A stretch of 64,000 nucleotides of DNA from Blastococcus sp. VKM Ac-2987 (GTDB lineage Bacteria; Actinomycetota; Actinomycetes; Mycobacteriales; Geodermatophilaceae). Every line of letters starts with the position of its first letter. Positions within the stretch are counted from its first letter, which is position 1. The notes beneath the pieces were generated by a model. That model saw only the letters and a list, made by a program, of their open reading frames with translations. It had not been told where the DNA came from and searched no databases. The stretch covers positions 1,116,001 through 1,180,000 of the forward strand of contig NZ_JAPVBG010000003.1 in NCBI RefSeq assembly GCF_026967805.1, read 5' to 3'. This document shows, piece by piece, positions 7,870 through 54,741 of the stretch. The translations under genes and the position numbers were made by a program.

Positions 7870-7945
7870 GCCGAATCGGCTGTTCATCATCGCATGGGGT
7901 CAGATCCGGCGCTCCGCCGCCCCCTCGCACGGGTGAGGACGCCGC

Positions 7946-39266: not shown

Positions 39267-39321
39267 GGCCGCTGGCTACCCGCTCGCTCCGGGCGCACGC
39301 GTTGGTCGCATGCTGGGCGGC

Positions 39322-39522
39322 ATGAGCAGGGACGCCGCGGCCGGCCGCGACCAGGAGACCGGGCGGTCGCACGCCGTCCTGCGCAGCACGGCGGATCTGC
39401 CGGCCCCGTGGGCCGCCGTCTGCGGCGCCTCGGTGGGCGTGGTCCAGGGCCGCTGGGACGGCCCCCGGGGTCTGGGCTCGGCCGACCCGTGCCCGGACTG
39501 CCGGCGGATCACGGAGTCCTGA
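39322..39522 (+). CDS. Small C-terminal CPDC protein
   Basis: A 66-aa hypothetical protein with one central Cys (AAVCGASVGVVQGRW) and the terminal CPDCRRITES, three cysteines in all. Small actinobacterial zinc-binding proteins with this kind of end exist, but none is named. It starts at ATG 39322, 55 nt from the divergent DUF2243 start, so promoter space is short. The coding status rests on codon bias and this motif only. Confidence 0.45.
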   Translation: MSRDAAAGRDQETGRSHAVLRSTADLPAPWAAVCGASVGVVQGRWDGPRGLGSADPCPDCRRITES

Positions 39523-39577
39523 GGGGGGCTGCTCCCCTCGTCGTGGCGGTTCGTCGTGGTCGTCGGTGTGCACCCAG

Positions 39578-39594
39578 TTGTTGGGGATAGCGGT
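39578..39594. repeat. 17-nt repeated motif, copy 2
   Basis: TTGTTGGGGATAGCGGT, one substitution away from the copy at 19091-19107. It lies 157 nt upstream of the ornithine cyclodeaminase gene. Here GGGGAT and a downstream ATCCC (about 39608-39612) could pair around a 20-nt loop. Whether it is a shared regulatory site or a dispersed short repeat is unknown. Confidence 0.35.
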
Positions 39595-39750
39595 ACGACG
39601 ACGCGTCCGGATCCCGTCGCTCTCCGGATGCCGCCGGGCGGAGCGGCCCGCACGCCAGCTGTCGGTGGCAAGCTGCGCTACGACACCTACAGCCGCGCCG
39701 GTCGCCGTTCGCACCGGTGCCGCCACCGCAGACCGGGGAGGACGCACGGG

Positions 39751-40782
39751 ATGACCGAGTTCGTGGGCGTCGGCAACATGGTCCGCTGGGTGGCCGCGAC
39801 GGGGGTCGAGGCCGCCGTCGCCGGGATCGCCGGCTACGTGCGCGAGGACTTCTGCCGCTGGCAGTCCTTCCACAAGACGCCGCGGACGGCCAGCCACACG
39901 CCCTTCGGCGTCATCGAGCTCATGCCCACCAGCGACTCGGTGACCTACGCCTTCAAGTACGTCAACGGCCACCCGTCCAACCCGGCCCGGGGCTTCCAGA
40001 CCGTCACCGCCTTCGGTGCGCTGGCCGACGTGTCGAACGGCTACCCGGTCTTCCTCGCCGAGATGACGCTGCTGACCGCGCTGCGGACGGCGGCCGTCTC
40101 CGCGGTCGCGGCCGCGGCCCTGGCCCGCCCGGACTCCCGGCGGCTGGCCCTGATCGGAGCCGGCAGCCAGGCGGAGTTCCAGGCGCTGGCGATGCGCCAC
40201 GCGCTGGGCATCGACCGGGTCACCGCCTGGGACACCGACCCCGCGGCGCTGGTGAAGCTCGCGCGCAACCTCGGGCCGCTGGGGTTCGACGTCACCCTGG
40301 CCGGCTCCGGACGCGAGGCGGTCCGCGGCGCCGACGTGGTCACCACCTGCACCGCGGACAAGGCGCTGGCCACCGTGCTGCCCGACGCGTGGGTCGAGCC
40401 CGGCATGCACGTCAACGCGATCGGCGGCGACTGCCCGGGCAAGACAGAGCTCGACCCGGCGATCCTGCGCCGGGCCGGCGTCTTCGTGGAGTACACCCCG
40501 CAGACCCGCGTCGAGGGCGAGATCCAGGCCCTCGGGCCCGACTTCCCCGTCACCGAGCTGTGGGAGGTGCTGACCGGTCGCCGTCCGGGGCGCACCTCGG
40601 CCGGGCAGGTGACGGTTTTCGACTCGGTCGGCTTCGCCGTGGAGGACTTCTCGGCGCTGCGCTACCTGCGCGACGCCGTCCGCGGGACGCCGTGGGTGGA
40701 GCGGATCGACCTGGTGGCCGAGCCCGAGGACCCCAAGGACCTCTTCGGGATGGTCACCGCCCCCTCGCCGATCGGCGCCTGA
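39751..40782 (+). CDS. Ornithine cyclodeaminase / mu-crystallin family protein
   Basis: A 343-aa NAD-dependent enzyme of the ornithine cyclodeaminase family. The N-terminal part has VAAVAGIAGYVREDFCRWQSF and the FGVIELMPTSDSVTYAFKYVNGHP substrate region. The Rossmann motif is LALIGAGSQAEFQALAMRH at about residue 133, and the DVVTTCTADKA block follows. The family includes ornithine cyclodeaminase, alanine dehydrogenase-like and N-alkyl amino acid dehydrogenases, so the substrate is open; the Phe/Tyr-rich substrate loop differs from classical forms. ATG 39751 has GGGGAGGA upstream. Confidence 0.85.
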   Translation: MTEFVGVGNMVRWVAATGVEAAVAGIAGYVREDFCRWQSFHKTPRTASHTPFGVIELMPTSDSVTYAFKYVNGHPSNPARGFQTVTAFGALADVSNGYPVFLAEMTLLTALRTAAVSAVAAAALARPDSRRLALIGAGSQAEFQALAMRHALGIDRVTAWDTDPAALVKLARNLGPLGFDVTLAGSGREAVRGADVVTTCTADKALATVLPDAWVEPGMHVNAIGGDCPGKTELDPAILRRAGVFVEYTPQTRVEGEIQALGPDFPVTELWEVLTGRRPGRTSAGQVTVFDSVGFAVEDFSALRYLRDAVRGTPWVERIDLVAEPEDPKDLFGMVTAPSPIGA

Positions 40783-40841
40783 AGGGGGAGCCGGTCCCGA
40801 CCACCCGGCCGGGCAACTGGCTCCCCGGGCCGCGGCCCGGC

Positions 40842-42245
40842 CTAGTGCCCGGTGGTCGCCCGGCGGTGGACCCGCCGGTCGAACCGGTCGGGCTTCCCGC
40901 CGAGGGGCCGGCCGAAGTACCTGCCCAGCACGACACCGGCGGCGAGGGCGAGCCCGATCGCCGCGGCCCCGACGAGGCCGTTCAGCCCGTCGGCGACGTC
41001 GGCCTCCACGACGATGGCGAACAGACCGCGGTAGATCGACAGCCCGGGCAGCAGCGGGACGATGCCGCAGACCGCGACCAGCAGCGGCGGGATCCGCAGC
41101 CGCTCGGTCAGGGCCTCCCCGCAGAACCCGACGACGACGGCCGCGACCGCGGTCGCCACCGCGGGGCCTGCGCCGAGCACGCCGGCGGCCCAGTACGTCG
41201 TCCAGGCCACCGCACCGGTCACGGTGGCGACGCCGACGGCCCGCGCCCGGGCGTAGGACGCCAGGGCCCACGACCCCGCCATCCCGGCCGCCGCGGCCAG
41301 CGCCACGGCGAACGGCACGCTGAACGTCGCCGGGTCGGCCACCCGCAGCGGGACCTGCGCGCGCTGGGCCAGGTCCAGCACACCGGCGATGCCGACGACG
41401 ATGCCGGTCGTCAGGGTGAGCACCTCGAAGGCCCGCGCGGCGGCGGTCACCGGGAACCCGCTGATCGCGTCCTCGGCGGCACCCACGAAGGAGAGCCCGG
41501 CCAGCAGCACCACGATCCCCGCGGCCACGACCAGCGAGCTGCGGACCCCGACGTCCCAGACGACGAGCAGGACGGCCACCCCCGTCGCCACCGCGGCACC
41601 CGCCGCCTGCTGGAAGAAGCTGGGGAGCCCGCGCCGGTCCAGGGCCCGGATGACCCGCTCGATGGTGGCCGTGGTCAGCGCCGCCACCAGGGCCACCAGC
41701 CAGCTGCCGCCGAGCTGGAAGGCGACGGCGCCTGCCACGCCGGCCCAGCCCAGCGCGTGCACGCGGCGGCGGTACGGGTTCGGGGCGGACACGACCCGGT
41801 CCAGCCGGCGGTGTGCGACCTCGACGTCCAGGCGCTCCACCACCACCGCCCGGGCCAGGTCGGTGATCCCCTGCAGGCGGGTGTAGTCGAGCCCACGCGG
41901 GCGCACGATCCGCATCAGGGTCATCGGCGGGGCGTCGTCCGGGTCGTGGCTGATCGTCAGCGACGTGTGCGTGATGTCCACCTGGCAGGCGGTGAGCCCG
42001 TAGGCCGCCGCCACGCGCAGCACGGTGGCGTTGACGTCGGCCGCCGAGGCCCCGACGGCCATCATGGACTCCCCCAGGCGGAGTGCCAGACCGACCGCTG
42101 CTCGTGCGGTGGGCTCGTCCACGCCGCTCGGCTGGGAGCGCAGCGCGAAGGGAGCCGTCGGCGGGCCGGAGCCGGAGACCGCCCACCGCGCCCGGTCCGG
42201 AAGTCGACTCAGCCGCCGCCCCCAGCCCTGGTTCACGAGTCGCAC
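40842..42245 (-). CDS. ThrE family threonine/serine exporter
   Basis: A 467-aa protein with a soluble N-terminal domain (residues 1-165, the cytoplasmic part that resembles a hydrolase-like fold) and about ten membrane helices. The early motif GESMMAVGASAADVNATVLRVAAAYG and the middle LMRIVRPRGLDYTRL are typical of ThrE, the threonine exporter of Corynebacterium. Its stop is 60 nt from the ornithine cyclodeaminase stop, convergently. Amino-acid specificity is not deducible. Confidence 0.88.
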   Translation of the reverse strand: MRLVNQGWGRRLSRLPDRARWAVSGSGPPTAPFALRSQPSGVDEPTARAAVGLALRLGESMMAVGASAADVNATVLRVAAAYGLTACQVDITHTSLTISHDPDDAPPMTLMRIVRPRGLDYTRLQGITDLARAVVVERLDVEVAHRRLDRVVSAPNPYRRRVHALGWAGVAGAVAFQLGGSWLVALVAALTTATIERVIRALDRRGLPSFFQQAAGAAVATGVAVLLVVWDVGVRSSLVVAAGIVVLLAGLSFVGAAEDAISGFPVTAAARAFEVLTLTTGIVVGIAGVLDLAQRAQVPLRVADPATFSVPFAVALAAAAGMAGSWALASYARARAVGVATVTGAVAWTTYWAAGVLGAGPAVATAVAAVVVGFCGEALTERLRIPPLLVAVCGIVPLLPGLSIYRGLFAIVVEADVADGLNGLVGAAAIGLALAAGVVLGRYFGRPLGGKPDRFDRRVHRRATTGH

Positions 42246-42363
42246 CTCTCCACGTTACGGAGGCAGGGCGAACGCCACGGCCGCCCTGCGCCGGTGTCGT
42301 CATGACCTTCGCCACCCGGCCGGACGCGCACCCACCCGCGGCGTCGACCGGGGTCGGTCGCGC

Positions 42364-42382
42364 ATGAGATAATGATTCTCAT
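42364..42382 (+). promoter_or_regulatory. Zur box overlapping the znuA start
   Basis: ATGAGATAATGATTCTCAT, a 19-nt site with perfect 6-nt outer arms and a GATAATGAT core of the Fur/Zur type. The znuA ATG is its last two bases plus the next, so a bound repressor would cover the translation start. The fourth gene of the operon encodes a Fur-family regulator of the Zur type, which makes zinc-dependent autorepression of the operon very probable. Confidence 0.75.
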
Positions 42383-43373
42383 GGACAACTCGGTTACGCG
42401 CCGATCCGCGATCGCAGCGGCCACGGCTTCCCTGCTCCTCCTGGCCGGCTGCGGCGGCTCTGCCGGCTCCGACGCCGCCGACGCCGCCACCGGGAACGCC
42501 GAGGGCCTCGACCTCGTCGCCGGCTTCTACCCGCTGGAGTGGGCCGCTGCCCGGGTCGGCGGGGACCGAGTCTCGGTCTCGTCGCTGACCGCGCCCGGCG
42601 CCGAGCCGCACGACCTCGAGCTGACCCCCCAGGACGTCGCCGGGATCTCCGATGCCGATCTGCTCGTCTACCTCAGCGGCTTCCAGGCCGCGGTGGACGA
42701 AGCCGCCGGGTCCCAGGCGGGCGACCACTCGTGGGACGCCGCCGAGGTCGCGGACCTCACGCTCACCACGACCGGTCACGACCACGAGCACGCCGAGGAA
42801 GAGCACGCCGACGAGGAGCACGCGGAGGGCGAGCACGCGGAGGGCGAGGAGGTCCCCGACCCGCACTTCTGGCTGGACCCGACCCGGCTGGCCGACGTGG
42901 GTGACGCACTCGCCGCCCAGCTGACCGAGCTGGACCCCGACGGCGCGGACACCTACGAGCAGAACGCCGCCGCCCTGCGGGAGGACCTCCAGGCGCTGGA
43001 CGAGGAGATGACCGACGGGCTGCAGAACTGCGCCGTCGACACCCTGGTCACCAGCCACGACGCCTTCGGCTACCTGGCCGACAGGTACGGTTTCGAGGTG
43101 ATCGGCATCTCCGGTCTCGACCCCACCACCGAGCCCTCGCCGGCTGCGCTGGCCGAGATCTCCGACCTCGTCGCCGAGCGCGACGTCACGACCGTCTACA
43201 CCGAGGTCCTGATCGACCCGGCCATCGCCGAGACCGTCGCCGCGGAGGCGGGCGTGCAGACCGCCGTCCTCGATCCGCTCGAGGGCCTCACCGACGAGTC
43301 GGCCGGCGACGACTACCTCGCCGTCATGCAGGCCAACCTGGCGGCCCTGCAGGAGGGCCAGTCCTGCTCATGA
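42381..43373 (+). CDS. znuA: Zinc ABC transporter substrate-binding lipoprotein
   Basis: A 330-aa cluster A-I solute-binding protein for zinc. It begins with a lipoprotein signal, ATASLLLLAGCGG, where Cys is the lipidation site. A His/Glu-rich loop (HDHEHAEEEHADEEHAEGEH, about residues 131-150) lies between the lobes. Metal-ligand candidates are His in GAEPHDLELT, His in DPHFWLDP, His in TSHDAFGYLADRYG and the late Glu/Asp of YTEVLIDPAIAE. ATG 42381 sits at the Zur box end; an in-frame ATG at 42372 is also possible. It overlaps znuC by 4 nt. Confidence 0.94.
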   Translation: MDNSVTRRSAIAAATASLLLLAGCGGSAGSDAADAATGNAEGLDLVAGFYPLEWAAARVGGDRVSVSSLTAPGAEPHDLELTPQDVAGISDADLLVYLSGFQAAVDEAAGSQAGDHSWDAAEVADLTLTTTGHDHEHAEEEHADEEHAEGEHAEGEEVPDPHFWLDPTRLADVGDALAAQLTELDPDGADTYEQNAAALREDLQALDEEMTDGLQNCAVDTLVTSHDAFGYLADRYGFEVIGISGLDPTTEPSPAALAEISDLVAERDVTTVYTEVLIDPAIAETVAAEAGVQTAVLDPLEGLTDESAGDDYLAVMQANLAALQEGQSCS

Positions 43374-44191
43374 CCGACTCCCCGCCGACCGGACCCGCCG
43401 CCGTCAGGCTCCGGCACGCCACCATCGGCTACGGCGACGTGGCCGTGGTGCGCGACGTCGACCTGACGGTCGGCACCGGTGAGGCGGTCGCCGTGCTGGG
43501 GTCCAACGGCTCGGGCAAGACCACGCTGGCCCGCGGCCTGCTGGGCCTGGCCAACGTGCTCGGCGGTGAGGTCGACGTGCTGGGCGCCCCCGTCGGCGGC
43601 CTGCGCGAGCGGGGCCGGGTCGGGTACGTCCCCCAGCGGCACTCCATCAGCGGCGCCGTCCCCGCCACGGTCCGGGAGGTCGTCGGGGTCGGGCGGCTGG
43701 CGCGGCTGGGACTGCTCCGCCGGCTCCGGCCGGCCGACCGCACCGCCGTCACCGAGGCGGTGGCGGCGGTCGGCCTGGCCGATCGGCTGGACGACCCGGT
43801 CGCCTCGCTGTCCGGCGGGCAGCAGCGGCGGGTGCTGGTCGCCCGCGCGCTGGCCGCCGACCCGGAGCTGCTGATCATGGACGAACCCACGGCCGGCGTG
43901 GACGCCGCGAACCAGGAGGCGCTGGCCGGGGTGCTGGCGCGCATCTCGGCGACCGGCACCACCCTGATCGTCGTGACCCACGAGACCGCCCCGCTGGCCG
44001 GCGTCCTGTCCCGGGCGATCGTGGTCGACCACGGCCTGGTGGCCTACGACGGACCGCTGGAGCAGGCTGCGGCGCACGAGGAGCCCGGCCTCCACCACCA
44101 CCACCCGCCCGGCCGCCGGCCGTCCGGTTACCGCCAGGACCAGCCGACCGTGACCACCGGGCCACGCCGCCGCGGCGACGAGGAGCACTGA
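43370..44191 (+). CDS. znuC: Zinc ABC transporter ATP-binding protein
   Basis: A 273-aa ATPase component. Walker A is GSNGSGKTTLARG at about residue 41, the Q-loop VPQRHSISG near 86, the signature LSGGQQRRVLVA at about 146, and Walker B LLIMDEPTAG at about 168, followed by the switch His in VTHETAPL. The C-terminus carries an unusual HEEPGLHHHHPPG tail and then a basic, disordered end, which is not part of the usual ATPase fold. It overlaps znuA by 4 nt and is followed by znuB after 1 nt. Confidence 0.95.
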   Translation: MTDSPPTGPAAVRLRHATIGYGDVAVVRDVDLTVGTGEAVAVLGSNGSGKTTLARGLLGLANVLGGEVDVLGAPVGGLRERGRVGYVPQRHSISGAVPATVREVVGVGRLARLGLLRRLRPADRTAVTEAVAAVGLADRLDDPVASLSGGQQRRVLVARALAADPELLIMDEPTAGVDAANQEALAGVLARISATGTTLIVVTHETAPLAGVLSRAIVVDHGLVAYDGPLEQAAAHEEPGLHHHHPPGRRPSGYRQDQPTVTTGPRRRGDEEH

Positions 44192-44192
44192 C

Positions 44193-45218
44193 GTGGGCAT
44201 CCTGGACTACGACTTCATGCAGCGGGCGCTGCTCGCCTCGCTGATGGTCGGGCTCGTCGCGCCTGCCGTCGGCGTCTTCCTGGTGCAGCGCCGGCTGTCG
44301 CTGCTGGGCGACGGCCTGGGGCACGTCGCGCTCACCGGCGTCGCCGTGGGCGTCCTGACCGCCAACAGCCCGGTGTGGACGGCGCTCGTGGCCGCGGTCC
44401 TCGGAGCGGCGGTCATCGAACTGGTCCGCGCCCGCGGCCGCACCAGCGGCGACGTCGCACTGGCGGTCCTCTTCTACGGCGGCATCGCCGGTGGTGTGGT
44501 GCTGCTCGGCCTGGCCCCCCGCGGCCAGGCGACGAACCTCGACGCGTACCTCTTCGGCGCCATCACGACGACGAGCCCGCAGGACGTCGGGGTCTTCGCG
44601 GTCATCGCGGTCGTCGTGCTGGCCACGGTGGCCCTGCTGGGTCAGCGGCTGTACGCGGTCAGCGACGACGAGGAGTACGCCCGGGCCGTCGGCCTGCCGG
44701 TCCTCGGTCTCAACCTCGTCCTGGCCACGCTCGTCGCCTGCACCGTCGTCCTGTCGATGCGGGTCGTCGGCCTGCTGCTGATCAGCGCCCTGATGATCGT
44801 GCCCAGTGCGATCGCCCAGCTGCTGGCCCGCAGCTTCCGCGAGACCGTCGGGCTGGCCTGCGTCATCGGGCTGGTGGTGAGCGTCTCCGGGACCACCACG
44901 TCCTTCTACGCCGGAACGCCGTCGGGCGGCACCATCGTGCTGCTGGCCATCGCCCTCTTCCTGCTCGTGTCCGCGGCCGTGGCCCTGCAGGAGGCGACGG
45001 CCCGGCGACGGCACCGGCGTAGGGTCGACGTCCACGACGCGCACCCCCACGACCACGGTGCGGACTGCGGCCACGTGGCGGTGCCGCACGACGACCACGT
45101 CGACTACGACCACGACGGGCACCTCCACGCACCGCACCGGACCGACCGGGGCGTGCACTACGACGAGCACGGGGAACACGCGGTCGGCGTTCCCCCCAGC
45201 AGCGGAAGAACGGGGTGA
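44193..45218 (+). CDS. znuB: Zinc ABC transporter permease with His-rich C-terminal tail
   Basis: A 341-aa ABC-3 family permease with about eight membrane helices up to about residue 270, including LLASLMVGLVAPAVGVFLVQRRLSLLGDGLGHVALTG and RVVGLLLISALMIVPSAIAQLLA. The last 65 residues are strikingly His/Asp-rich (VHDAHPHDHGADCGHV, PHDDHVDYDHDGHLHAPH), which is not standard for ZnuB and could bind zinc near the pore. GTG 44193 follows the znuC stop by 1 nt. Confidence 0.93.
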   Translation: MGILDYDFMQRALLASLMVGLVAPAVGVFLVQRRLSLLGDGLGHVALTGVAVGVLTANSPVWTALVAAVLGAAVIELVRARGRTSGDVALAVLFYGGIAGGVVLLGLAPRGQATNLDAYLFGAITTTSPQDVGVFAVIAVVVLATVALLGQRLYAVSDDEEYARAVGLPVLGLNLVLATLVACTVVLSMRVVGLLLISALMIVPSAIAQLLARSFRETVGLACVIGLVVSVSGTTTSFYAGTPSGGTIVLLAIALFLLVSAAVALQEATARRRHRRRVDVHDAHPHDHGADCGHVAVPHDDHVDYDHDGHLHAPHRTDRGVHYDEHGEHAVGVPPSSGRTG

Positions 45219-45220
45219 CC

Positions 45221-45640
45221 ATGACCGAGCCGGCGTCCACGGAGGTCCCCGGCCGTCGCACCACGCGGCAGCGGAGCGCGCTCGTCGCGCTGCTCGACGA
45301 GCTGGACGGCTTCCGCAGCGCCCAGGACCTGCACGCCCTGCTGCGCCAGCGCGGCGAGTCCGTGGGCCTGGCGACGGTCTACCGGGCGCTCCAGGCGCTG
45401 GTGGACGACGGACAGCTGGACATCCTCCGCGGAAACGACGGCGAGGCCTCCTACCGCCGCTGCTCCCCCGTCCACCACCACCACCTCGTCTGCCGTTCCT
45501 GCGGACGCACGGTGGAGGTCGCCGACCCTCCGGTCGAACGGTGGGCGGCGCGGATCGCCACTGAGCACGGCTTCGCCGACGTCCAGCACCAGGTCGAGGT
45601 CTTCGGCACCTGCGCCGCGTGCACCGCGGCGCACACCTGA
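45221..45640 (+). CDS. zur: Zinc uptake regulator, Fur family
   Basis: A 139-aa Fur-family repressor. The winged helix spans TRQRSALVALLDELDGFRSAQDLHALL and GLATVYRALQALVDDGQLDIL. The regulatory zinc site has HHHHLVCRSCGRTVEV at about residue 87, and the structural site has the Cys pair in FGTCAACTAAH near the C-terminus. It is translated last in the znu operon and should repress it through the box at 42364-42382. A GTG at 45215 overlapping the znuB stop is an alternative start; ATG 45221 was preferred. Confidence 0.92.
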   Translation: MTEPASTEVPGRRTTRQRSALVALLDELDGFRSAQDLHALLRQRGESVGLATVYRALQALVDDGQLDILRGNDGEASYRRCSPVHHHHLVCRSCGRTVEVADPPVERWAARIATEHGFADVQHQVEVFGTCAACTAAHT

Positions 45641-45772
45641 CCCGCACGGACGGCTGAGCCGCTCACCGCCGGCCGCACGAGGCCACACCGCCGCCGGTCG
45701 AACCCCTGCTACGCGTTCCGGGGTCCGACTCCGGTCGCCGCGCAGGGCGCCCCACTGTACCGTCGAGAGTTA

Positions 45773-45786
45773 GTTGAGCGCACAAC
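45773..45786. promoter_or_regulatory. Near-palindrome upstream of wrbA
   Basis: GTTGAGCGCACAAC reads GTTG-n-GCGC-n-CAAC on both strands with two symmetric substitutions. It lies 53 nt upstream of the wrbA ATG. Similar sites control quinone-stress genes through MarR- or HxlR-type repressors, so it may be the operator of wrbA. No regulator gene is adjacent. Confidence 0.45.
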
Positions 45787-45838
45787 GATCCGTGCCTCAC
45801 CCCGTCGTCCACCGACGCCACATGCACCGGGAGCAACC

Positions 45839-46438
45839 ATGGCCAAGATCGCCGTCGTCTACTACTCGTCCACGGGCAACACCCACCAGCTGGCCCAGGC
45901 CGTCGCGGAGGGCGCCGAGGAGGCCGGGGCCGAGGTCCGGCTGCGCCGGGTCGCCGAGACCGCACCGGATGCCGCCATCGACAGCAACCCGGCCTGGCGG
46001 GCGCACCTCGACGCCGTCGCCGACGTCCAGATCGCCGCACCGGAGGACCTGGAGTGGGCCGACGGGTACGCCCTGGGCACCCCGACCCGGTTCGGGACGC
46101 CGTCCGCGCAGCTGAAGTCCTACCTCGACACCCTCGGCGGGCTCTGGGCCACCGGCAAGCTGGCCAACCGCGGCGCGACGGCGTTCACCAGCGCGCAGAA
46201 CACCCACGGTGGCAACGAGTCGACGATCCTGACGCTGTTCAACGTCTTCTCGCACTTCGGCGCCGTCATCGTCCCGCCGGGTTACACCGACCCGCTGCTG
46301 TTCGACGCCGGCGGCAACCCCTACGGCGCCTCCGTCGCCTCGGGCGGCGACGCCAACGCCGCCTCGGACAAGGTCCTCGCCGCTGCCCGGTACCAGGGTC
46401 GCCGGCTCGCCGAGATCAGCGCAAAGCTCGTCGCCTGA
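45839..46438 (+). CDS. wrbA: NAD(P)H:quinone oxidoreductase WrbA
   Basis: A 199-aa flavodoxin-like protein that uses FMN and NAD(P)H for two-electron reduction of quinones, avoiding semiquinone radicals. The FMN phosphate loop is VYYSSTGNTHQLAQ at the N-terminus; the characteristic PTRFGTPSAQLKSYLDTLGGLW and the TSAQNTHGGNESTIL block follow. ATG 45839 has a GGGAGCA ribosome site. It is monocistronic: a strong hairpin (46454-46495) follows. Confidence 0.94.
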   Translation: MAKIAVVYYSSTGNTHQLAQAVAEGAEEAGAEVRLRRVAETAPDAAIDSNPAWRAHLDAVADVQIAAPEDLEWADGYALGTPTRFGTPSAQLKSYLDTLGGLWATGKLANRGATAFTSAQNTHGGNESTILTLFNVFSHFGAVIVPPGYTDPLLFDAGGNPYGASVASGGDANAASDKVLAAARYQGRRLAEISAKLVA

Positions 46439-46453
46439 CCCGGCCCCGCACAG

Positions 46454-46495
46454 CAGCAGGGGCCGTGTCCGGAGAACCGGACACGGCCCCTGCTG
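46454..46495 (+). terminator. Perfect 19-bp hairpin after wrbA
   Basis: Positions 46454-46472 pair perfectly with 46477-46495 around an AGAA loop, 15 nt after the wrbA stop. The stem is GC-rich with no U-tract. It marks the end of the wrbA transcript and lies only about 10 nt from the truncated tRNA-Pro copy that opens the island. Confidence 0.85.
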
Positions 46496-46504
46496 TCCTG
46501 CTGC

Positions 46505-46548
46505 CGGGCTGACAGGTTTCGAACCTGCGACCCCTTGACCCCCGGTCA
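46505..46548 (-). pseudogene. 3'-half remnant of tRNA-Pro (probable attachment site)
   Basis: On the minus strand this reads as the anticodon loop, T-arm and 3' acceptor strand of tRNA-Pro, matching the intact gene at 54712-54669 at 41 of 44 positions. The differences are at 46517, 46520 and 46544. A block of 23 nt (46521-46543) is fully identical to 54685-54707. The 5' half of the tRNA is absent. Such a tail in the same orientation as an intact tRNA is the classic product of integrase-mediated insertion into a tRNA gene. Confidence 0.85.
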
Positions 46549-46750
46549 CATTCGCCGGGTTCGCCATCGTCCGCGGTCGTGCCACTTGCGCAGGTCACGA
46601 GCCCCAGCGTCCGCTGTCGTTCGGCTGTGTCCGGGCTCGTCCGGACCGCGTTGCTGTACGGGTTCCTGTAGCCCATCAGCCCGCGTATGCCCCTGCTACC
46701 CGACCTCTCGCAGCAGGTACTCGAAGCGTTGGACGAGCCACCTGCCCTGC

Positions 46751-47740
46751 TCACCCGTGACCGTCAGCGTGGGCGCTCTGCCCTTGTCCAGAAGCCTGCT
46801 GATTGCACCCGGGGTGGACGAAGGTCGGCCCTTGCTCGCCGCCGCCGCGCCAGATGAACTCGGTCAGCCGGACCCCGGTCACCTTCTCGGCGGCGGCGTC
46901 GTCGGGCGGCTGGAGACGCAGCGCGGCGTAGAGGTCGAACCGGTGCACGTCGTACGCGGCCTCGAACAGGTCGGCGTAGTCCGAGCCGGCGGGGAGCAGC
47001 CAGAACCGGTAGGCGGCGAACGCGGCGAGCAACGCCAGCGGCACGCTCCACCAGGCGATCCACCCGAAGGCCACGCCGAGCAGGCACCAGATCAGCCCGC
47101 TGGCAGCGCTGTCCAGCCGGCCTCGTGCGGCGATCAGTTCCTGCCGGACGGCGTCCGGGAGCACCAACCACGTGACCGGCCACAGCTTGACGGGCTCGAG
47201 GCGGTACTTGTCCCACGGCCGGGTCTCGGCCGACCTGAGGACGTTGCCCAGCCGGGTGGGCAGCATCCACACCTCCCGCGACGGCAGCCGGCTGCGCCGA
47301 CCGTCGGCCGCGACGTACCTCCGCTCCTCATCGGGGGTCGCGGTGCCCGCGTGGATCGCCGGCGCCAGCTCCCGGACGACCTCCACCGCCTCCTTCCGCC
47401 TCTCCCACGCCCGTCCGGCCCCGCGGTCGGCCAGTCGCCGGAGACCCGGTGGCCAGTACCCCTCGAGGAGCGGGATGACCCTGGGCACGAACTGCCGGAC
47501 GACCGCGCCCGCCGCCGCGATGACCAGCAGGCCGGCCACGACCCACGCCAGCAGCTGCGGGGACTCCTGGCCGGAGACCCAGTTCGTCAGCCGGCTCCAG
47601 CCCGTGCCTGGACCGACGGTGACCAGCCAGAGCGCGAGACCAGATGCCGCATACGCCACCGGCGCGGTGGTGAGGACCCCCGCCGCCCGCTCACCCAGCT
47701 TGGAGCCGGCGGACTCGGTGAACTTGTCGAGCACCATCAC
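46751..47740 (-). CDS. Four-helix membrane protein of the CHAT operon
   Basis: A 329-aa protein with hydrophobic segments at about residues 20-45 and 62-87 (LLAWVVAGLLVIAAAGAVV), a central basic cytoplasmic region, and a second pair at about 225-265 (LIWCLLGVAFGWIAWWSVPLALLAAFAAYRFWLL). No family was recognised. The ending looks broken: the frame closes in CNQQASGQGQSAHADGHG, while the next frame continues for 36 residues of normal composition to a stop at 46696. A frameshift near 46807 would explain this. GTG 47740 overlaps the stop of the 129-aa gene; ATG 47737 is also possible. Confidence 0.65.
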   Translation of the reverse strand: MMVLDKFTESAGSKLGERAAGVLTTAPVAYAASGLALWLVTVGPGTGWSRLTNWVSGQESPQLLAWVVAGLLVIAAAGAVVRQFVPRVIPLLEGYWPPGLRRLADRGAGRAWERRKEAVEVVRELAPAIHAGTATPDEERRYVAADGRRSRLPSREVWMLPTRLGNVLRSAETRPWDKYRLEPVKLWPVTWLVLPDAVRQELIAARGRLDSAASGLIWCLLGVAFGWIAWWSVPLALLAAFAAYRFWLLPAGSDYADLFEAAYDVHRFDLYAALRLQPPDDAAAEKVTGVRLTEFIWRGGGEQGPTFVHPGCNQQASGQGQSAHADGHG

Positions 47741-48126
47741 ACCCGGACCAGCTGTTCGTCCGGGTGGTCGGGGCACACCGAGATCTCCTCGCCGGGGTCG
47801 ACCCGGTACCAGACGAAGAGGTGGTCGACCGGGCACTCGAACCGAGGCGGCGGCTGGGCGATCCCGGATCCCAGCAACGGCTGGTAGCCGGCCCCGCGTT
47901 CCCGCAGTGGCGCGACCTCGGGCGGCAGACCCGTCTCGACGAAGCCCGCCAGCCAGTCCAGCAGGGAGTCCGCCGACCCGAACAGTTCCTCCAGCCCTTC
48001 GCGGTCCCCTGCTCGCAGCAGCGCGACCAGCCGCGCGTCGACCTCCTGCGCCCGCTCCTCGACCAGGTCCGGCAGATAGCGGCGGACCGCTCGCGCGGCC
48101 TCGATCAGCGGATCGGTCCCGTCCAT
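47737..48126 (-). CDS. Small Cys/His protein of the CHAT operon
   Basis: A 129-aa protein whose N-terminal three quarters are helical and charged (LVEERAQEVDARLVALLRAGDREGLEELFG). The C-terminal part has a possible zinc site: Cys98-x3-His102 and Cys118-x2-His121 in FECPVDHLFVWYRVDPG and ISVCPDHPDE. I do not know the family. It sits 42 nt after the CHAT gene and overlaps the membrane-protein gene, so it is made together with both and could be an adaptor or an inhibitor of the protease. Confidence 0.7.
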   Translation of the reverse strand: MDGTDPLIEAARAVRRYLPDLVEERAQEVDARLVALLRAGDREGLEELFGSADSLLDWLAGFVETGLPPEVAPLRERGAGYQPLLGSGIAQPPPRFECPVDHLFVWYRVDPGEEISVCPDHPDEQLVRV

Positions 48127-48168
48127 GCCTGTCCCTTCGACGACGGCGGTGCTGGCCAGCGCGCCCGT

Positions 48169-51159
48169 TCACCCGCCGAGGTAGGTGAACGCGGCCCAGT
48201 GCTGCGGGTGGCGGTGGGTCCGCCCGGAGGCCCAGAGGGAGCGCAGCCGCCCGGTCCCGACCCGCGCGGCGACGTCGGCGAGCGCGTCGGGGAACGTGGC
48301 GAGCTTCTCGCCGGACGAGGCGTCGCGGACCCAGAGCTGGGCCTGCCGGAGTGCCTCCTCGGGAGGCCGCCCTGAGGCCAGCTCCTGGTGGAACCGCAGC
48401 ATGAGGAGGCCGGTCGCCTGATCCGGCACGGACCACAGCGAGGCGACCACGCCGGCCGCGCCGGCCTGCAGGAAGCCGCTCGCCAGGTGCACGGCCTCGT
48501 CGGGCAGCTCCGTCCCGGCGATCCCTGTCTGGCAGGCGGAGAGGACGGCGAGCCGGGCGCGCGTGCCGCCTCGCTCGAGCAGGTCACGCAGGCTGAGCTC
48601 GTCCTCACCGGCCAGCAGGAGCGCGCTGCGCAGGGGTGCACCGAGTTCCGCCCGGCCGTGACAGGCCAGGTGCAGCAACCCGGCGGAGGCGAAGGCGTCG
48701 AGGACGCGGTCCCGGGTCACCTGCTCGCCGGTCAGCGGTGTCCCGCCGAACAGCGCCGCCACCGCACGGGCCTCGACCTCCGCGTGCGGGATCGGCGGGG
48801 CCGTCGCCGTGGCGGCGACGCCGATGACCAGGGCGGGCCGGAGGTCGCGGGCCGCAGCGGCCGCCCGGCAGGTGGCCGCGACGCGGGCGCTGGGCGCGTA
48901 CGTCACGGTCACCCGGTCGAGGACGTGGTGGCGCCCACCGTCGCCGTCTGCCCAGGACGCCGCGTGCAGCGGCAGCAGGGTGAGCGCGCCCAGCGGGACG
49001 AGCGTGAGGGACCCGACGTCCCCCAGGTCCTCGAGCAGCGGCCGCATGGCGACCTCCCCGAGCCAGTCGAGCACCGCCGGGAGCTGGTCCCGCCGGGCGT
49101 CGGCCCCGCCGACGACGCCGAGCAGCGGGCCCCCGGCCACGACCACCGACCAGTGGGTGAGGTCGGGCAGCCAGGTCACCGTCGTACTCCCGTCGGCGCG
49201 CACGGTCACGGCCACGCCGCCGACGTCCGTGGCGGCCAGGAAGGTCACCGGACCAGTGCGGGCGACCGCTGCCACGTCCGCGAAGGTCGTGCCGACGAGG
49301 AACCCGGCTAATCCGGGCACGGCCCGGACGGCGGCGGTGGCCCGGTCCAGCTCGGCGCGGGCGTCGCGCCGCGCGCGGTCACGCTCCTCGCCCGACCCAC
49401 CGGCGTCCTCGCCGTCGAGCTCGAGAGCGGTGACGCGGGCAGCGCAGTCGACGAAGCGGTCCGCCAGGTCGGCATGCCCGGCTGCGGCGAGCGTGCCCAG
49501 CTCGGCGCGCTCCCGGTCCAGCGCATCACCGAGCAGCCGCGCGCGGCCGCGCTCCATCACCACGACCGCATCCTGCGGCCGGCCCACTTGGGCCAGGGCG
49601 TACCCGGCGTTGGCGGCGACCAGGCGCGCCTCGGCGAGGGTGGCGGTCTTGCGGTCCCGTCCGAGCTGCAACGGGTACAGGCGGTCAGCCGCCTCTGCGG
49701 CCGCCGTCCAGGCCTCCGCGGCGTCGTCGTCCGCGCCTTCCTCGAACGCCCAGCTGCCCCAGTCCGAGCCGGCGAGCAGGGCGGACCGCACGTTGCCACG
49801 GGCGCCCTCGGCGCACGCGTCGCGGAACGTGGCGGTCGCTGCTGCGGCGTCCGCCGGGTCCCCGGACGCGGCCGCCTGCAACGACAGCGCGAGCCCCAGG
49901 TTGTGCAGCAGCTCCGCGCGCTCCCACGATCCCGGTCGGACGCCGGCGACCGCCTCCCGAGCCAGCGTCACGGCGCGTCGGAGGTCCTCGGGGGCGCCGG
50001 ACTCGACGTGGCGTTCCAGGTGGACCAGGCCGAGGTCGCTGAGCAGGCTCGGCCGCCAGTCGTGACCCGGGCCGGCCTCGGCCAACGCCCGTTCCAGGAC
50101 GGTGGCCGCCTCCGGCAGCAGATCCCTGCGCCCCGCCCCGCGCGCGGCCGCGAACAGAGCCCGCCCAAGCGTCGCGAGCGCCAGGACCCGCCGCCGGGTG
50201 CCCGCAGGCGCCGCCCCGACCAGCCGGCGGGCCGCTGCGACCGCCTCACCGGGGACGGCGGCCCGCGACACCGCCATCTGTTCCACGCGGTGCCGGTCCG
50301 GCATGCCGGCCGGCAGCGACCCGAGCGCCGCATCGATCAGCCGGGTGGCCCGCTCGGCGTCGCTGCGGTCGCCGGTGGTGCGCGCGCGGGCGCTGAGCCC
50401 GGCGGCGAGGTTGGCGCGGTGCCAGGGCGACGGATCGAGCGAGACCGCCTCCTCGAACGCGGTCACGGCCGCGGCGACGTCGCCGGCTCCAACGCCGAGC
50501 TCGGCGCGCGCGAGGAGCACGCACCCCCGGGCGTCGAGCAGGACCCCGCGCAGCGGACCGCCGGGCAACGCGAGTGCGGCGTCGAGCGCCGCGATGGCCC
50601 GGTCGGCGTCCTCGCGGGCGCCCCGCGCCTTGACCCGCAGCAGCAACGCCGCCGCGAGGTCGCGGCTGGCCGCGGCGCGCCACGGGGGCGGTGCGTCGGG
50701 GACGCCGGCGAGCGCCGCCTCCAGCGCCGTGGCCGCCTCGTCGAGGACGGCGTCGTCCGCCTGCACCTCGTAGTCGGCGGTGAGCACGCTCCCGAGCGTC
50801 CGGGAGGCCTGCGCCCGGTTCTCGTCCGATCCGGCCGCCGCGGCGGTGACGCCTGCCCGGGCGGCCGCGAGGGCGTCCTGGACGTCGGCGGCACGGCCGT
50901 GCCGCTCGTACCGCTCCCGGAGCATCGTGGCGGCCTTCGTGGTCAGCGCCACGGTGAGGCCCGCCGGCAGCGCAGGCCAGGCCGGATGCCCGCGCAGCTC
51001 CCGCCAGGCGTCCGCTGCCGCATCGAGCGCTGCGTCGGAGGGGTCCCGGTCGTAGTCGTCCTCGGCCTGCTGCAGCCGCACGGCGAGCGGCGCGATGGAC
51101 AGCAACCGCTGCGGATCCGCGTCCCGGGGAGCGGGCCACCGGAGCGGCCGGCCGGTCAC
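48169..51159 (-). CDS. TPR-CHAT domain protease
   Basis: A 996-aa protein. About residues 20-600 are tetratricopeptide-like helical repeats (for example SVLTADYEVQADDAVLDEAATALEAAL). About residues 680-996 are a CHAT (caspase/separase-like) domain. The catalytic dyad is visible: His at about 834 in LLHLACHGRAELG and Cys at about 876 in LAVLSACQTGIAGTEL, followed by the typical VASLWSVPDQATGLLMLRFHQEL. GTG 51159 overlaps the Sel1 gene stop as GTGA; a GTG at 51168 is another option. CHAT proteases work in conflict systems such as TPR-CHAT (Craspase) and bacterial gasdermin loci. Confidence 0.93.
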   Translation of the reverse strand: MTGRPLRWPAPRDADPQRLLSIAPLAVRLQQAEDDYDRDPSDAALDAAADAWRELRGHPAWPALPAGLTVALTTKAATMLRERYERHGRAADVQDALAAARAGVTAAAAGSDENRAQASRTLGSVLTADYEVQADDAVLDEAATALEAALAGVPDAPPPWRAAASRDLAAALLLRVKARGAREDADRAIAALDAALALPGGPLRGVLLDARGCVLLARAELGVGAGDVAAAVTAFEEAVSLDPSPWHRANLAAGLSARARTTGDRSDAERATRLIDAALGSLPAGMPDRHRVEQMAVSRAAVPGEAVAAARRLVGAAPAGTRRRVLALATLGRALFAAARGAGRRDLLPEAATVLERALAEAGPGHDWRPSLLSDLGLVHLERHVESGAPEDLRRAVTLAREAVAGVRPGSWERAELLHNLGLALSLQAAASGDPADAAAATATFRDACAEGARGNVRSALLAGSDWGSWAFEEGADDDAAEAWTAAAEAADRLYPLQLGRDRKTATLAEARLVAANAGYALAQVGRPQDAVVVMERGRARLLGDALDRERAELGTLAAAGHADLADRFVDCAARVTALELDGEDAGGSGEERDRARRDARAELDRATAAVRAVPGLAGFLVGTTFADVAAVARTGPVTFLAATDVGGVAVTVRADGSTTVTWLPDLTHWSVVVAGGPLLGVVGGADARRDQLPAVLDWLGEVAMRPLLEDLGDVGSLTLVPLGALTLLPLHAASWADGDGGRHHVLDRVTVTYAPSARVAATCRAAAAARDLRPALVIGVAATATAPPIPHAEVEARAVAALFGGTPLTGEQVTRDRVLDAFASAGLLHLACHGRAELGAPLRSALLLAGEDELSLRDLLERGGTRARLAVLSACQTGIAGTELPDEAVHLASGFLQAGAAGVVASLWSVPDQATGLLMLRFHQELASGRPPEEALRQAQLWVRDASSGEKLATFPDALADVAARVGTGRLRSLWASGRTHRHPQHWAAFTYLGG

Positions 51160-52625
51160 GGCGACCACCAGCGGCGGCGCTTCCGCTGTCGCAGCGCAGC
51201 GAGGTTCTGCACCGCTCGCTGATCACCGCCGGCGGCCGCCTCCTCCCACCACCTGACCGCCTCGTCGAACCGGTTCGCGCGGAACGCGAGCAGCCCGAGG
51301 GAGAAGGCGGCCCGCTCGTGACCAGCCTCGTGGGCCCGGCGGAACCAGGCCTCGGCGACCGCGGTGTCCTGGGCCTTGTCGAACAGCAGCCCGAGGTTGA
51401 ACATGGCGCTCCGCTCGCCGGCAGCGGCCGCCCGCTCGTACCAGGAGATCGCGCCGGCCTTGTCGTCGACGCGCTCGCGGAGCATGGCCAGCTTGTGCGC
51501 CGCCCGGCCGTCGCCCGCGTCGGCGGCGCGGCGGAAGGCACGCTCCGCAGCCGCCGTGTTGCCCCGCTGGTCCTCGAGGATGCCGAGAAGGAGCCCGGCG
51601 TCGGGGACGTACGCCGCCGCGGGGCCGTCGAGCCAGGCGGCAGCCTCGTCGTCCGCGCGCCGGACCAGCAGCAGCCGGCCGAGCTCCACCGCCGCGCGGG
51701 GTTCACGGTCGGCCACCAGCCGGAGGAACCGCTCGGCTGCGTCCGGCTCGCCGATCGCGGAGAGGTACTCCGCGTACGAGGTGACCAGCTCGGTCCGGTC
51801 GGTGCCCGCGAGCTGCTCGACAAGACGGTCGGCGGTCGCACGATCGCCGTCCTGGAGTGCGAGTGCGGACAGGCCGCCCAGCGCTCGCGCGCTCCCCGCC
51901 GCCGCCGCGGCCCGCAGGAGCGACCGCGCTTCCTCGAAGCGCTTCTCCTCCAGCTGGGCGAGGCCGAGCGCCGCGGCGGCGTCCACGGAGCCGCTCGTCA
52001 TGCCCCGCAGCAGGATCTCCTTGCCGAGCGCGCGCGCACCGAGTTCCAGGGCACTCTCGCCGGCGTACACGGCGACGTCAGGTGCACCGTCGAAGGCGGC
52101 CAGCCACGACCGGGCCTCGTCGGCGCGGCCCTGTCTCAGGAGCAGCCGGACGAGGTTCGCCGCACCGAGAGGCTCGCCCGCCTCGGCGGCGGCTCGGTAG
52201 TGGGACTCGGCGCCACTCTGGTCGCCGCGAGCCAGGAGGAGGGCGCCGAGGTTGATGTGCGCGCTGACGACGCCGCCGTCCGCGGCGCCCGCGTGCCAGA
52301 CGGCGGCTTCGTCCTCGTGTCCGGTGGCGGCCAGCGACACGCCCAGGTGGAACGCCGCCTCCGCGTTGCCCCGCTCGGCCGCCGGGCGGAAGGCCTCCGC
52401 GGCCGCGGCCTCGTCCCCGCGGTCGGCCAGGCTGATGCCCAGGGCGAGGGAGGCCTGGTCGTCGCCGGTCGCCCCGGCATGTCGGGCGACTCGATCCGCC
52501 CGGGCCGCCGCCCGCCGGGCCGCGATGCCGATCAGCGGCGCGGGCCCGGCGGACGGAACCGTCCCCGCGGAGTCAGTGGGCGGCCGCACGACCCCCGCCT
52601 CTCGTCGCTCGCGGTGGGCTCCCAC
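51156..52625 (-). CDS. Sel1-like repeat protein of the CHAT operon
   Basis: A 489-aa protein made almost entirely of Sel1-like (TPR-type) repeats of about 36 residues, for example AEAFRPAAERGNAEAAFHLGVSLAATG and ISWYERAAAAGERSAMFNLGLLFDKAQD. Roughly twelve repeats run from residue 55 to 475. There is no signal peptide or membrane segment. It probably scaffolds protein contacts, perhaps presenting something to the CHAT protease made from the next gene, which it overlaps by 4 nt. GTG 52625 lies 12 nt after the stop of the 327-aa gene. Confidence 0.85.
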   Translation of the reverse strand: MGAHRERREAGVVRPPTDSAGTVPSAGPAPLIGIAARRAAARADRVARHAGATGDDQASLALGISLADRGDEAAAAEAFRPAAERGNAEAAFHLGVSLAATGHEDEAAVWHAGAADGGVVSAHINLGALLLARGDQSGAESHYRAAAEAGEPLGAANLVRLLLRQGRADEARSWLAAFDGAPDVAVYAGESALELGARALGKEILLRGMTSGSVDAAAALGLAQLEEKRFEEARSLLRAAAAAGSARALGGLSALALQDGDRATADRLVEQLAGTDRTELVTSYAEYLSAIGEPDAAERFLRLVADREPRAAVELGRLLLVRRADDEAAAWLDGPAAAYVPDAGLLLGILEDQRGNTAAAERAFRRAADAGDGRAAHKLAMLRERVDDKAGAISWYERAAAAGERSAMFNLGLLFDKAQDTAVAEAWFRRAHEAGHERAAFSLGLLAFRANRFDEAVRWWEEAAAGGDQRAVQNLAALRQRKRRRWWSP

Positions 52626-52637
52626 GGCGCAGCGGGT

Positions 52638-53621
52638 TCATGTCCCGGTGCTCGGTCGGAGGCTGCCGTAGGCGAGTGCCTGCTGGACCCACACCAGGGC
52701 CGGGTGGTCCCGCGGGAGGTCCGTCGCAGCCTGGACCAGGGACGCCCGGGCCCGGGCGAGGTCGCCGGGTGCGCCGGTGCGCCGGTAGCGGACGTGCAGT
52801 GCCCGGCCGAGGTTGGCGCGGGCAACGGCCCCGTTGACCGAACCCGGCGCTGCCCGGGCGATCAGATTGCCGTACCCGGCGATCGCCCGGTCCAGGTCGG
52901 CCGGATCCCCGTTGGCGTCGAATCGCACCATCAGCCAGTTGGCCGACGCCAGCCTCAGCAGGGTCTCGTTGTCCGAGCCCGGTTCGACGTGGTGCTGCGC
53001 CGAACGCAGCAGGTCGAAGGCACGCTCCAGGTCGGCCGGGCGGCCGTCGATCTCGAAGCGCCGCGCATACAGCATCGCCACGGTGAGATGGGCCTCGACC
53101 AGCGACTCGGGCGGGAACTCGGCCAGCAAGCCGGTGACCGCGAGCTGTTCCCAGACCTCGATCCCCCGACGCAGGTCGCTGGCATCCCGCGTGCGCGCAT
53201 AGGTCTTGTCGGCGTTGACCGCCGCCGCGACGAAGTGCCCGAGTATCTCCCGCGGCGCCGTGTCGATGCCGAGGTGGGCGGGTGGTCGCGCCGGTGTGGC
53301 CTCGCGCCGTCCGCGCAACCAGGCCTGCAGCTCCTGCAGGTCCGGAAGCGACACGACGAGTCCGGCCATGACCGCGAAGGACACGACCAGCTCCAGAGCT
53401 CGCCCAGCAGGCTCCGTGGCGAGTTGCGGATGGCGGTCGACGACCGCAGCTCTGGCCGCGGGACTGTCGGCGAACACGAGTTCGGCGACTCCCTGGAAGA
53501 TCGGTTCGATACGCGCATAGCTGGTGAGCAGGTCGCGGAGCGACTCGCGCTCGTGCTCGATCAACTCCCGCGGCGGAGGAGAGCCGGTCCCGCTCTCACG
53601 TCGCCGGCGCCTGAGACCCAT
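52638..53621 (-). CDS. TPR-like helical protein, first gene of the CHAT operon
   Basis: A 327-aa protein. The N-terminus is basic (MGLRRRRRESGTG). A hydrophobic stretch at about residues 78-100 (LELVVSFAVMAGLVVSLP) may contact the membrane. The C-terminal half has TPR-like repeats of the type found in CHAT proteins, such as ADLERAFDLLRSAQHHVEPGS and ADLDRAIAGYGNLIARAAPGS. ATG 53621 was taken as start; the longer frame reaches into low-complexity DNA. No catalytic motif is seen. It is probably the sensor or regulatory partner of the CHAT protein. Confidence 0.72.
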   Translation of the reverse strand: MGLRRRRRESGTGSPPPRELIEHERESLRDLLTSYARIEPIFQGVAELVFADSPAARAAVVDRHPQLATEPAGRALELVVSFAVMAGLVVSLPDLQELQAWLRGRREATPARPPAHLGIDTAPREILGHFVAAAVNADKTYARTRDASDLRRGIEVWEQLAVTGLLAEFPPESLVEAHLTVAMLYARRFEIDGRPADLERAFDLLRSAQHHVEPGSDNETLLRLASANWLMVRFDANGDPADLDRAIAGYGNLIARAAPGSVNGAVARANLGRALHVRYRRTGAPGDLARARASLVQAATDLPRDHPALVWVQQALAYGSLRPSTGT

Positions 53622-53851
53622 GGTGATCGACCCCTCGCGTGCCCGTGCGCGTCCGCCGGTCTCGTCGTGGCGAGACTGCGTCGGGCCGGACGGCTTCCGC
53701 TGTGCTGATGACGCCGGAGGCCGTGGCAGAACTCCACGACGACAGGACCCTAGGCAGGTGGACGTCACCGCGTTGTCACCGCAGGGGTACTGCTGCGCGA
53801 GTACGGGAAATTGATCCTTGGTGCCGACAGGCGCCGCTGAGGACGTCCATC

Positions 53852-53990
53852 GTGCCCAAGCCCGACCCCCGGAAGTTCCACGACGTCGTCGTGAACGTCG
53901 CCCGCGACCGTGAGCCGGGCCAGCATCTGAAGCAGATCGGCGGCCGACGTTGCGGTCGGCTCCGGCCAATGCGTCGGGCATCGAGGGCTT
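53852..53990 (+). pseudogene. IS3-family OrfA transposase remnant
   Basis: The first 29 codons from GTG 53852, beginning PKPDPRKFHDVVVNVARDRE and ending in HLKQI, match the N-terminus of IS3-type OrfA proteins of the PKPYP-E-F-DDVV-ARNREPG type. After HLKQI the frame breaks, and the neighbouring frame continues as AADVAVGSGQ, corresponding to the AADFGVS helix of the family. The remaining HTH is lost. No inverted repeats were found. It marks past mobile-element activity just inside the tRNA end of the island. Confidence 0.6.
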
Positions 53991-54667
53991 CCCGCTCGAC
54001 CTGGCGCTCGCCGGACAGCTGCGGCCACCCCGTCATCAGCGCTCCGACCTCGATCTGCGCCGGCCCACGCTGTTCCGAGGCACGCTGGAGCAGGTGGTGG
54101 CCGCCGGGGCCGAGTGCCGGCGGGGTGAGATACCACAGGATCCGCCGTGGACGGCGACCGTCATGTCGGCCGACCCGGCCGGCCCTGCGAGCGCACGGCA
54201 ACGAGGCCAGCCCGCCGGCGCCTGAGGGCGACATGTGCGTCGGAGGGTCAGAGCGAGGGACTGCGGCGACGGCCTGCGGCTGGTGCGGGGCCAATCCAGG
54301 CCTCGAGGCTGGGGATCGATCCCGAAGTGGTGTTCGGCCACCTGCCGGCACCGTGCCTGGGAGCTGGCGAGGGCCGCGGCCTCGGGCCTACCGCCGTGGA
54401 GCTCGTCGAGCGGCGCGTCGAGGTCCAGGTTCCTCTTCGTTCCCACCCGCCGCGACTGGCCCAGGCTGCTCGGTGAGCTCGGCGGTCAGCTGAATCACGG
54501 GCGGGTCCACGACCGCGCCCTGCCCGGCTTGGCGCGTGCACTACAGCCCCTACTGGAGGCCAACCGGAGACGCGCCCACCTCACCGGTCCCCCGGACGTG
54601 CGCTGACCACAAGCCTGAGGCGGGCCGGCCTTTACGGCCGACCCGCCCCTGACCTGCGGTTCCACTG
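53991..54667. other. Degenerate stretch between IS3 remnant and tRNA-Pro
   Basis: About 680 nt with overlapping open frames on both strands but none convincing. One plus-strand frame ends in RRDWPRLLGELGGQLNHG, and a minus-strand frame reads MGTKRNLDLDAPLDELHGG; either could be a scrap of a former island gene. No family was recognised. The usual location for an integrase gene, next to the tRNA, is therefore occupied by decayed sequence. Confidence 0.4.

Positions 54668-54741
<74 letters not shown>

Follow-up and report, generated by a model that had tools for sequence, protein, structure and literature searches.

A CHAT protease cluster at a variable tRNA-Pro site in Blastococcus carries a recurrent zinc-ribbon and membrane protein pair, a candidate conflict module

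Background

Caspase relatives are numerous in prokaryotes and, to our knowledge, most of them have no known substrate. Bacterial gasdermin systems place a protease beside a membrane-acting protein. The EACC1-caspase pair is a two-gene conflict system, common among actinobacteria of multicellular habit (Kaur et al. 2020, PMC7159879), and the part of that paper available to us proposes EACC1 as a membrane sensor that activates its caspase. In the type III-E CRISPR system (Craspase), the TPR-CHAT protease Csx29 cleaves Csx30 upon target RNA binding, according to the available passages of PMC10028731. There are also the MoxR-vWA ternary systems (Kaur et al. 2020); a GxxxTAKS P-loop is noted for two of their subsystems in the same part of PMC7159879.

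The locus described here encodes a TPR-CHAT protease together with a small zinc-ribbon-like protein, a membrane protein (MEM) and two repeat proteins. It lies in the window, by which we mean the whole stretch of 64,000 nucleotides of Blastococcus sp. VKM Ac-2987 that was analysed (contig NZ_JAPVBG010000003.1, positions 1,116,001 to 1,180,000). Pfam presumably includes an EACC1 model, and no match to one was listed for the five proteins or for 16 members of the MEM family; MEM, moreover, has more than one hydrophobic segment. The likeness to the EACC1-caspase system described in the passages of PMC7159879 lies in a constant membrane component adjoining a caspase-superfamily gene; EACC1 has a single conserved helix, whereas the component here is a polytopic protein of about 310 residues, accompanied by a separate zinc-ribbon protein and by several protease architectures. 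With Craspase the locus shares a TPR-CHAT protease, which matches in the catalytic part of CHAT, but the window's protein scores 46 bits against a cut-off of 300 for the Csx29 model NF041237. Apart from this weak match, neither Cas7-11 nor any other Cas protein was matched by the five proteins, and no CRISPR-like array was found in 45.4-55.0 kb. The resemblance to gasdermin systems is a functional analogy, a protease adjoining a membrane-acting candidate; the difference is that MEM is a hydrophobic, probably helical polytopic protein, and no gasdermin family was listed in Pfam for the five proteins or the 16 MEM members. In the sequence-only reading of the window, no gasdermin or type III-E name was thought to fit the accompanying genes. 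Pfam searches of the five proteins likewise gave no MoxR or vWA match, and no CATRA match at E <=1 was listed (Pfam presumably has CATRA models).

The zinc-ribbon/MEM pair is not described in the literature searched, which comprised PMC-licensed papers only, nor in the available passages of PMC7159879, PMC8195603, PMC10907252 and PMC10028731. The nearest published idea that we found is the EACC1-caspase membrane system of multicellular bacteria, as presented in the part of PMC7159879 available to us. The locus would work like a caspase-type conflict system and, by the features tested, falls outside the EACC1, type III-E and gasdermin systems.

The five-gene cluster and its CHAT protease

The sequence-only reading had listed five minus-strand genes for a TPR-like, a Sel1-repeat, a TPR-CHAT, a small Cys/His and a membrane protein. 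Checking the ORFs confirms the list: all five are open and closely packed between 46751 and 53621 (Table 1), and GTG starts at 51159 and 47740 reproduce the intergenic gaps of 12, -4, 42 and -4 nt. The boundary proposed at 46696 lies 55 nt past the last stop codon. Above the Pfam cut-offs, CHAT was matched in the 996-999-aa protein (7.2e-59; 200 bits against a cut-off of 24) and TPR families in the 489-aa protein. The 327-, 129- and 328-aa proteins had nothing above a Pfam cut-off, at most weak Pfam or PADLOC matches, and none in NCBIfam.

Table 1. Features of the cluster and its surroundings, in window coordinates
Feature	Position	Strand	Basis or remark
tRNA-Pro(GGG), intact, upstream end of inserted segment	54667..54741	-	
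Direct repeat copy over tRNA-Pro 3' half, attachment-site-like	54653..54719	.	
Second direct repeat copy, far end, diverged (84%)	46489..46555	.	8164 bp from first copy
TPR-like accessory protein, 327 aa	52638..53621	-	ORF; 46% identical relative directly 5' of CHAT in L102
Sel1/TPR repeat accessory protein, 489 aa	51156..52625	-	ORF, Pfam; same-position relative in L106
TPR-CHAT caspase-fold protease, 996 aa, catalytic H834/C876	48169..51159 (51168 with earlier GTG)	-	ORF, Pfam, alignment
129-aa protein (constant component): N-terminal part, LPG-like linker, C-terminal zinc ribbon	47737..48126	-	
Membrane protein MEM, 328 aa (constant component), probably four helices and a conserved positive central loop	46751..47737 (or 47740)	-	

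Membership of the protease in the CHAT family (PF12770) follows from a domain score above the curated cut-off and the presence of the catalytic His and Cys. These residues, seen already in the letters as His834 and Cys876, lie in the motifs HLACHG and LSACQTG; the numbering assumes the start with a 4-nt overlap into the Sel1 gene, and becomes H837/C879 under the longer start. Both are intact, and identical in 71 of 71 aligned CHAT domains (the window's and those of 70 relatives with a match longer than 200 aa, taken from 78 matching proteins, with some loci present twice). CHAT genes are uncommon in the class, any being found in 63 of 118 genomes. The source genome has a second one elsewhere (G000 C6:800125-800877).

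Location at a variable tRNA-Pro site

The cluster lies next to a tRNA-Pro gene, whose 3' half is part of a 67-nt direct repeat; the displaced copy of this repeat falls just past the last gene of the cluster, that for MEM. The linkage to a tRNA that had been suggested for the cluster is therefore found, and the spot is variable among congeners. DNA from the der side of the site is present in all 23 genomes of the genus. Of the 23 fetched loci, 17 have the tRNA beside der; for the remaining ones (L148, L149, L151-L154; L numbers denote individual loci), six in number, it is outside the fetched stretch, and the tRNA-side match sits separately, some kb off. A block that occupies about 35.7-39.3 kb of the window, 15.4 kb from its tRNA-Pro, begins 0.4-4.7 kb after the tRNA in 7 of 16 congeners (L164, L167-L172); in the other nine it is absent from the first 10 kb after the tRNA, where few genes are held in common. 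An uninterrupted site running from tRNA-Pro to wrbA was found neither within about 1.5 kb in the 23 genus genomes nor in stretches of 8-15 kb from the 16 congeners; the sequence after the tRNA varies instead. MEM itself is patchy, with a relative in 3 of the 23 genus genomes (one of them in pieces) and in 6 of 112 family genomes.

The tRNA-Pro with its displaced 3' copy, the varying layout in congeners and the patchy occurrence of MEM indicate that the cluster is gained DNA at a variable tRNA site. The exact ends of the element are unproven, because the repeat copies have diverged, no integrase was found, and the wrbA, zur and znu genes (the wrbA-znu block) may be arrivals or rearranged as well. 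The search for an integrase or its remnant covered nine ORFs, eight in 53.6-54.6 kb and one at the downstream end, none of which had a Pfam match at E <=0.1.

The stretch after tRNA-Pro (window 39266-54667) is much longer than in congeners such as L164, in which the block lies about 0.4 kb from the tRNA. The roughly 1 kb between the first gene and tRNA-Pro (window 53622-54660), with its tested ORFs free of Pfam matches, is perhaps decayed mobile DNA.

A conserved unit of three genes

MEM relatives occur in 45 of 394 genomes of the class at E <=0.001, weak matches included, and the order CHAT, small protein, MEM recurs among the first 20 loci. A scan of the genome collection with a MEM profile gave at least 80 loci in six phyla, including a few cases of two loci in one strain and several Frankia loci that coincide with places among the first 20. 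The 80 loci listed comprise 44 from Actinomycetota, 21 from Cyanobacteriota plus one from an untyped filamentous cyanobacterium, seven from Chloroflexota, five from Pseudomonadota and one each from Thermodesulfobacteriota and Acidobacteriota. Many of the actinomycete and cyanobacterial hosts are, we take it, filamentous.

In six-frame profile searches, 71 of the 80 loci listed had a zinc-ribbon gene on MEM's strand no more than 1 kb away, and 63 had a CHAT domain within 6 kb, in 56 of them on the same strand. CHAT had played no part in the selection of loci, which were found by the MEM profile, and even in the genome richest in CHAT genes among those listed (18 in 10 Mb), a randomly chosen point would lie within 6 kb of one only about 2% of the time. 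The zinc-ribbon and MEM genes are tightly spaced (median gap 4 nt; at most 20 nt in 45 of 53 adjacent called pairs from the loci listed). The association is more than chance, since the neighbourhood recurs in other phyla. The earlier expectation of a conserved neighbourhood is thus upheld, but for three genes rather than five: CHAT, zinc ribbon and MEM form the conserved unit, and the TPR and Sel1 genes are accessory.

In a MEM tree built by a quick method from 67 of the 80 loci listed and the window (two rows without a label), the phyla stay mostly together with some mixing, and there are 8 label changes against a least possible 4. This fits an old spread with some transfer, although the tree does not prove transfer.

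A CHAT/zinc-ribbon fusion that appeared to be present in Frankia sp. QA3 (L027, the same as L085) turned out not to be one: the CHAT reading ceases to make sense, and the zinc-ribbon gene simply follows in the same frame. In that strain (L085:8577-8993 and upstream), the CHAT gene is apparently broken ahead of an intact zinc-ribbon and MEM pair.

The zinc-ribbon protein and the membrane protein

The small Cys/His protein of the sequence-only reading does carry a zinc-ribbon-like motif at its C-terminus, with two cysteines that are invariant across 62 rows; its N-terminal part is probably helical. A single-sequence query of 97 genomes had matched only the window's own copy, a query of the genome collection had matched nothing, and the protein was at that point considered absent elsewhere; this was abandoned when a later profile was positive in 72 of the 80 loci listed, the early absence being due at least partly to the insensitivity of single-sequence search. 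In L075 (about 8155-8979, computed from the ORF length) the N-terminal domain is present in three copies. In L069 (about 7406-8833, likewise from the ORF length) the zinc-ribbon frame is open into a preceding ATPase gene, which we take to be ParA-like, and this is perhaps a fusion.

MEM has hydrophobic cores near residue 28 (weak), at 63-82 (strong) and at 217-245 (long). The stretch between the last two is positively charged (K+R 21.5 versus D+E 14.3, summed over 83-217) and contains the invariant residues G164, Y178, W186 and P187. The probable arrangement is one of four helices, the conserved loop facing the cytoplasm, where a protease could reach it. The cores bear out the proposal of a membrane protein, while the count of four helices is a reading of the sequence. 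No Pfam model matched the zinc-ribbon or the MEM family; PDB profile searches gave no match for MEM and weak ones only for the zinc-ribbon protein (best E 0.0096).

Accessory genes

The N-terminal part of the 327-aa protein bears a weak likeness, in a profile that included one misframed row, to an 'HPELL'-like stretch found close to where some CHAT proteins begin; the TPRs that follow are similar to the ones in CHAT proteins. The 46% identical relative in Actinoplanes palleronii (L102), which aligns over residues 16-316, belongs to a locus with the order TPR, CHAT, zinc ribbon, membrane protein. The five-gene order of the window was seen in one further locus, that of Streptomyces phaeochromogenes (L106), which has a short relative of the 327-aa N-terminal part (34%, E 2e-5) followed by Sel1/TPR, CHAT, zinc ribbon and MEM. 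The relative of the 489-aa protein in L106 matches at E 7.7e-37, and weaker matches follow MEM in L074, L084 and L093. The MEMs of L102 and L106 are not the nearest kin of the window's MEM, so the accessory genes are old or recurrent. The TPR and Sel1 proteins are probably extra sensor arms.

Interchangeable proteases and a possible mechanism

CHAT is not the only protease that accompanies the pair. In L047 and L048, a Peptidase_C14 domain fused to nSTAND1 stands in its place. On a conjugative plasmid of Nostoc sp. C052, the zinc ribbon and MEM are joined by a 1557-aa protein annotated as caspase family, with NA-iREase1 (NACHT-associated) and WD40 among the best 25 of 61 rows and the C14 model absent from those 25. 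Five loci (L117, L118, L121, L122 and L123) combine a MoxR ATPase, a second protein (with an AAA lid in the one scanned) and a CHAT-like protein, and L120 has the MoxR gene, but its contig ends. The CHAT-like proteins of L117, L118, L121 and L122 (L123 was not read) keep RCHG or RAHG and NAC or SAC motifs; of the two that were scanned, Pfam calls CHAT in L117 and not in L118. This sub-branch (L117, L118, L120-L123) resembles the MoxR-vWA ternary systems in that MEM is joined to a MoxR ATPase, and the GxxxTAKS P-loop is present in two of the four MoxR proteins read. The vWA motif is DxSxS, and the sub-branch differs in that four adjacent proteins of 572-649 aa lack it.

In all, a caspase-fold gene is nearby in 70 of the 80 loci listed, five of them on weaker evidence (two on position and motif alone); none was seen in the other ten, three of which (L096, L115, L120) are cut short by a nearby contig end. 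MEM was matched in five annotated plasmid records, and in every one of them a gene annotated as CHAT or caspase lies only a few genes away; the CHAT protein of a Rhodococcus plasmid has TPR-S repeats, which Pfam names a sensor. Because caspase-STAND, MoxR with CHAT-like and caspase-WD40 proteins take the place of CHAT beside it, the zinc-ribbon/MEM pair is a constant partner of interchangeable, receptor-type proteases of caspase fold.

We put at about even the chances that the cluster is a horizontally moving conflict module, for immunity or cell suicide, with a sensor-protease that licenses a protein acting on the membrane. A trigger would be sensed by TPR/Sel1 arrays, those of the CHAT protein as well as those of its two helpers, upon which the protease would be switched on; the active protease may then cleave or release the zinc-ribbon adaptor, MEM or both, and the freed MEM could disturb the cytoplasmic membrane, such that the infected cell stops growing or dies. 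Of the conflict-type layout that had been proposed from the letters, the conserved neighbourhood, the tRNA-Pro site and the plasmid relatives are borne out; we infer the role in defence, the direction from protease to membrane, and likewise which proteins are sensor, adaptor and effector.

The reverse logic deserves consideration: MEM and the zinc ribbon would act as sensor or anchor at the membrane and activate the protease, which would itself be the effector through cleavage of host proteins, as proposed for the single-helix EACC1. The constancy of MEM and the zinc ribbon beside a variable protease-receptor would suit this, as would the proposal, in the available part of PMC7159879, that EACC1 is a membrane sensor activating its caspase. 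MEM, however, has no large non-hydrophobic stretch besides its central loop and C-terminal tail. Recognition usually resides in variable repeat arrays or NTPase domains, and these (TPR, WD40, STAND, TPR-S) lie on the protease side; we regard the reverse logic as somewhat unlikely. Many hosts of the module presumably differentiate, which could point to a housekeeping or developmental regulator of the envelope or of division, similar to HetF, a CHAT-domain protein of cyanobacteria that form heterocysts. HetF is described as a divisome component in Anabaena (PMC8406250), but the patchy presence, the carriage on plasmids, the variable position at a tRNA and the exchange of proteases make such a regulator improbable.

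The zinc-ribbon/MEM pair may, as we tentatively suggest, be an unrecognised and widespread executioner cassette of bacterial caspase-type immunity, placed behind unrelated receptor-proteases (TPR-CHAT, caspase-STAND, caspase with NACHT-associated domain and WD40, MoxR-linked CHAT-like) and forming a polytopic counterpart of the soluble gasdermin pore former. A two-gene partner that is constant from Frankia to cyanobacteria and large sulphur bacteria, and that is kept while the protease is exchanged, offers a concrete candidate for both substrate and effector. The pair can also serve as a marker for finding further receptor-proteases.

Exceptions and neighbouring conflict genes

The caspase link is not universal. 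Profiles detected a CHAT or C14 gene beside none of the five further MEM matches in the window's own family, and a zinc-ribbon neighbour beside one. The neighbours there are a Tle1-like phospholipase (L212), a Fic protein (L209), HerA and methyltransferase genes (L211), or nothing recognised. Such loci would suit a reading in which there is no single system and MEM serves many conflict genes as a general partner at the membrane, its coupling to CHAT being one of several uses; this seems very improbable to us, as the loci that bear a zinc ribbon are tightly tied to caspase-fold proteases. In L212 (3291-5494), the MEM relative directly follows the phospholipase gene (T6SS_Tle1-like_cat, 3e-83). 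The MEM-like genes L036:5563-6549 and L039:6177-7142 have neither CHAT nor a zinc ribbon in the fetched 19 kb; they are close to what we take to be succinate-dehydrogenase genes.

MEM had no match in phage records or in viral contigs. The PADLOC models gave 57 model matches in 125 neighbours and 11 in 125 controls, counts that we do not take as enrichment; many are several models of one protein (PD-T4-6 and PDC-S68, among the matches listed). The neighbours were 125 of 145 eligible proteins, from 19 of the 20 first-round loci, and the controls 125 of 384 proteins from elsewhere in ten of the same genomes. The comparison of neighbours for known defence genes is at most suggestive.

On the Rhodococcus plasmid (L197), a DUF2235 gene precedes the zinc-ribbon/MEM pair.
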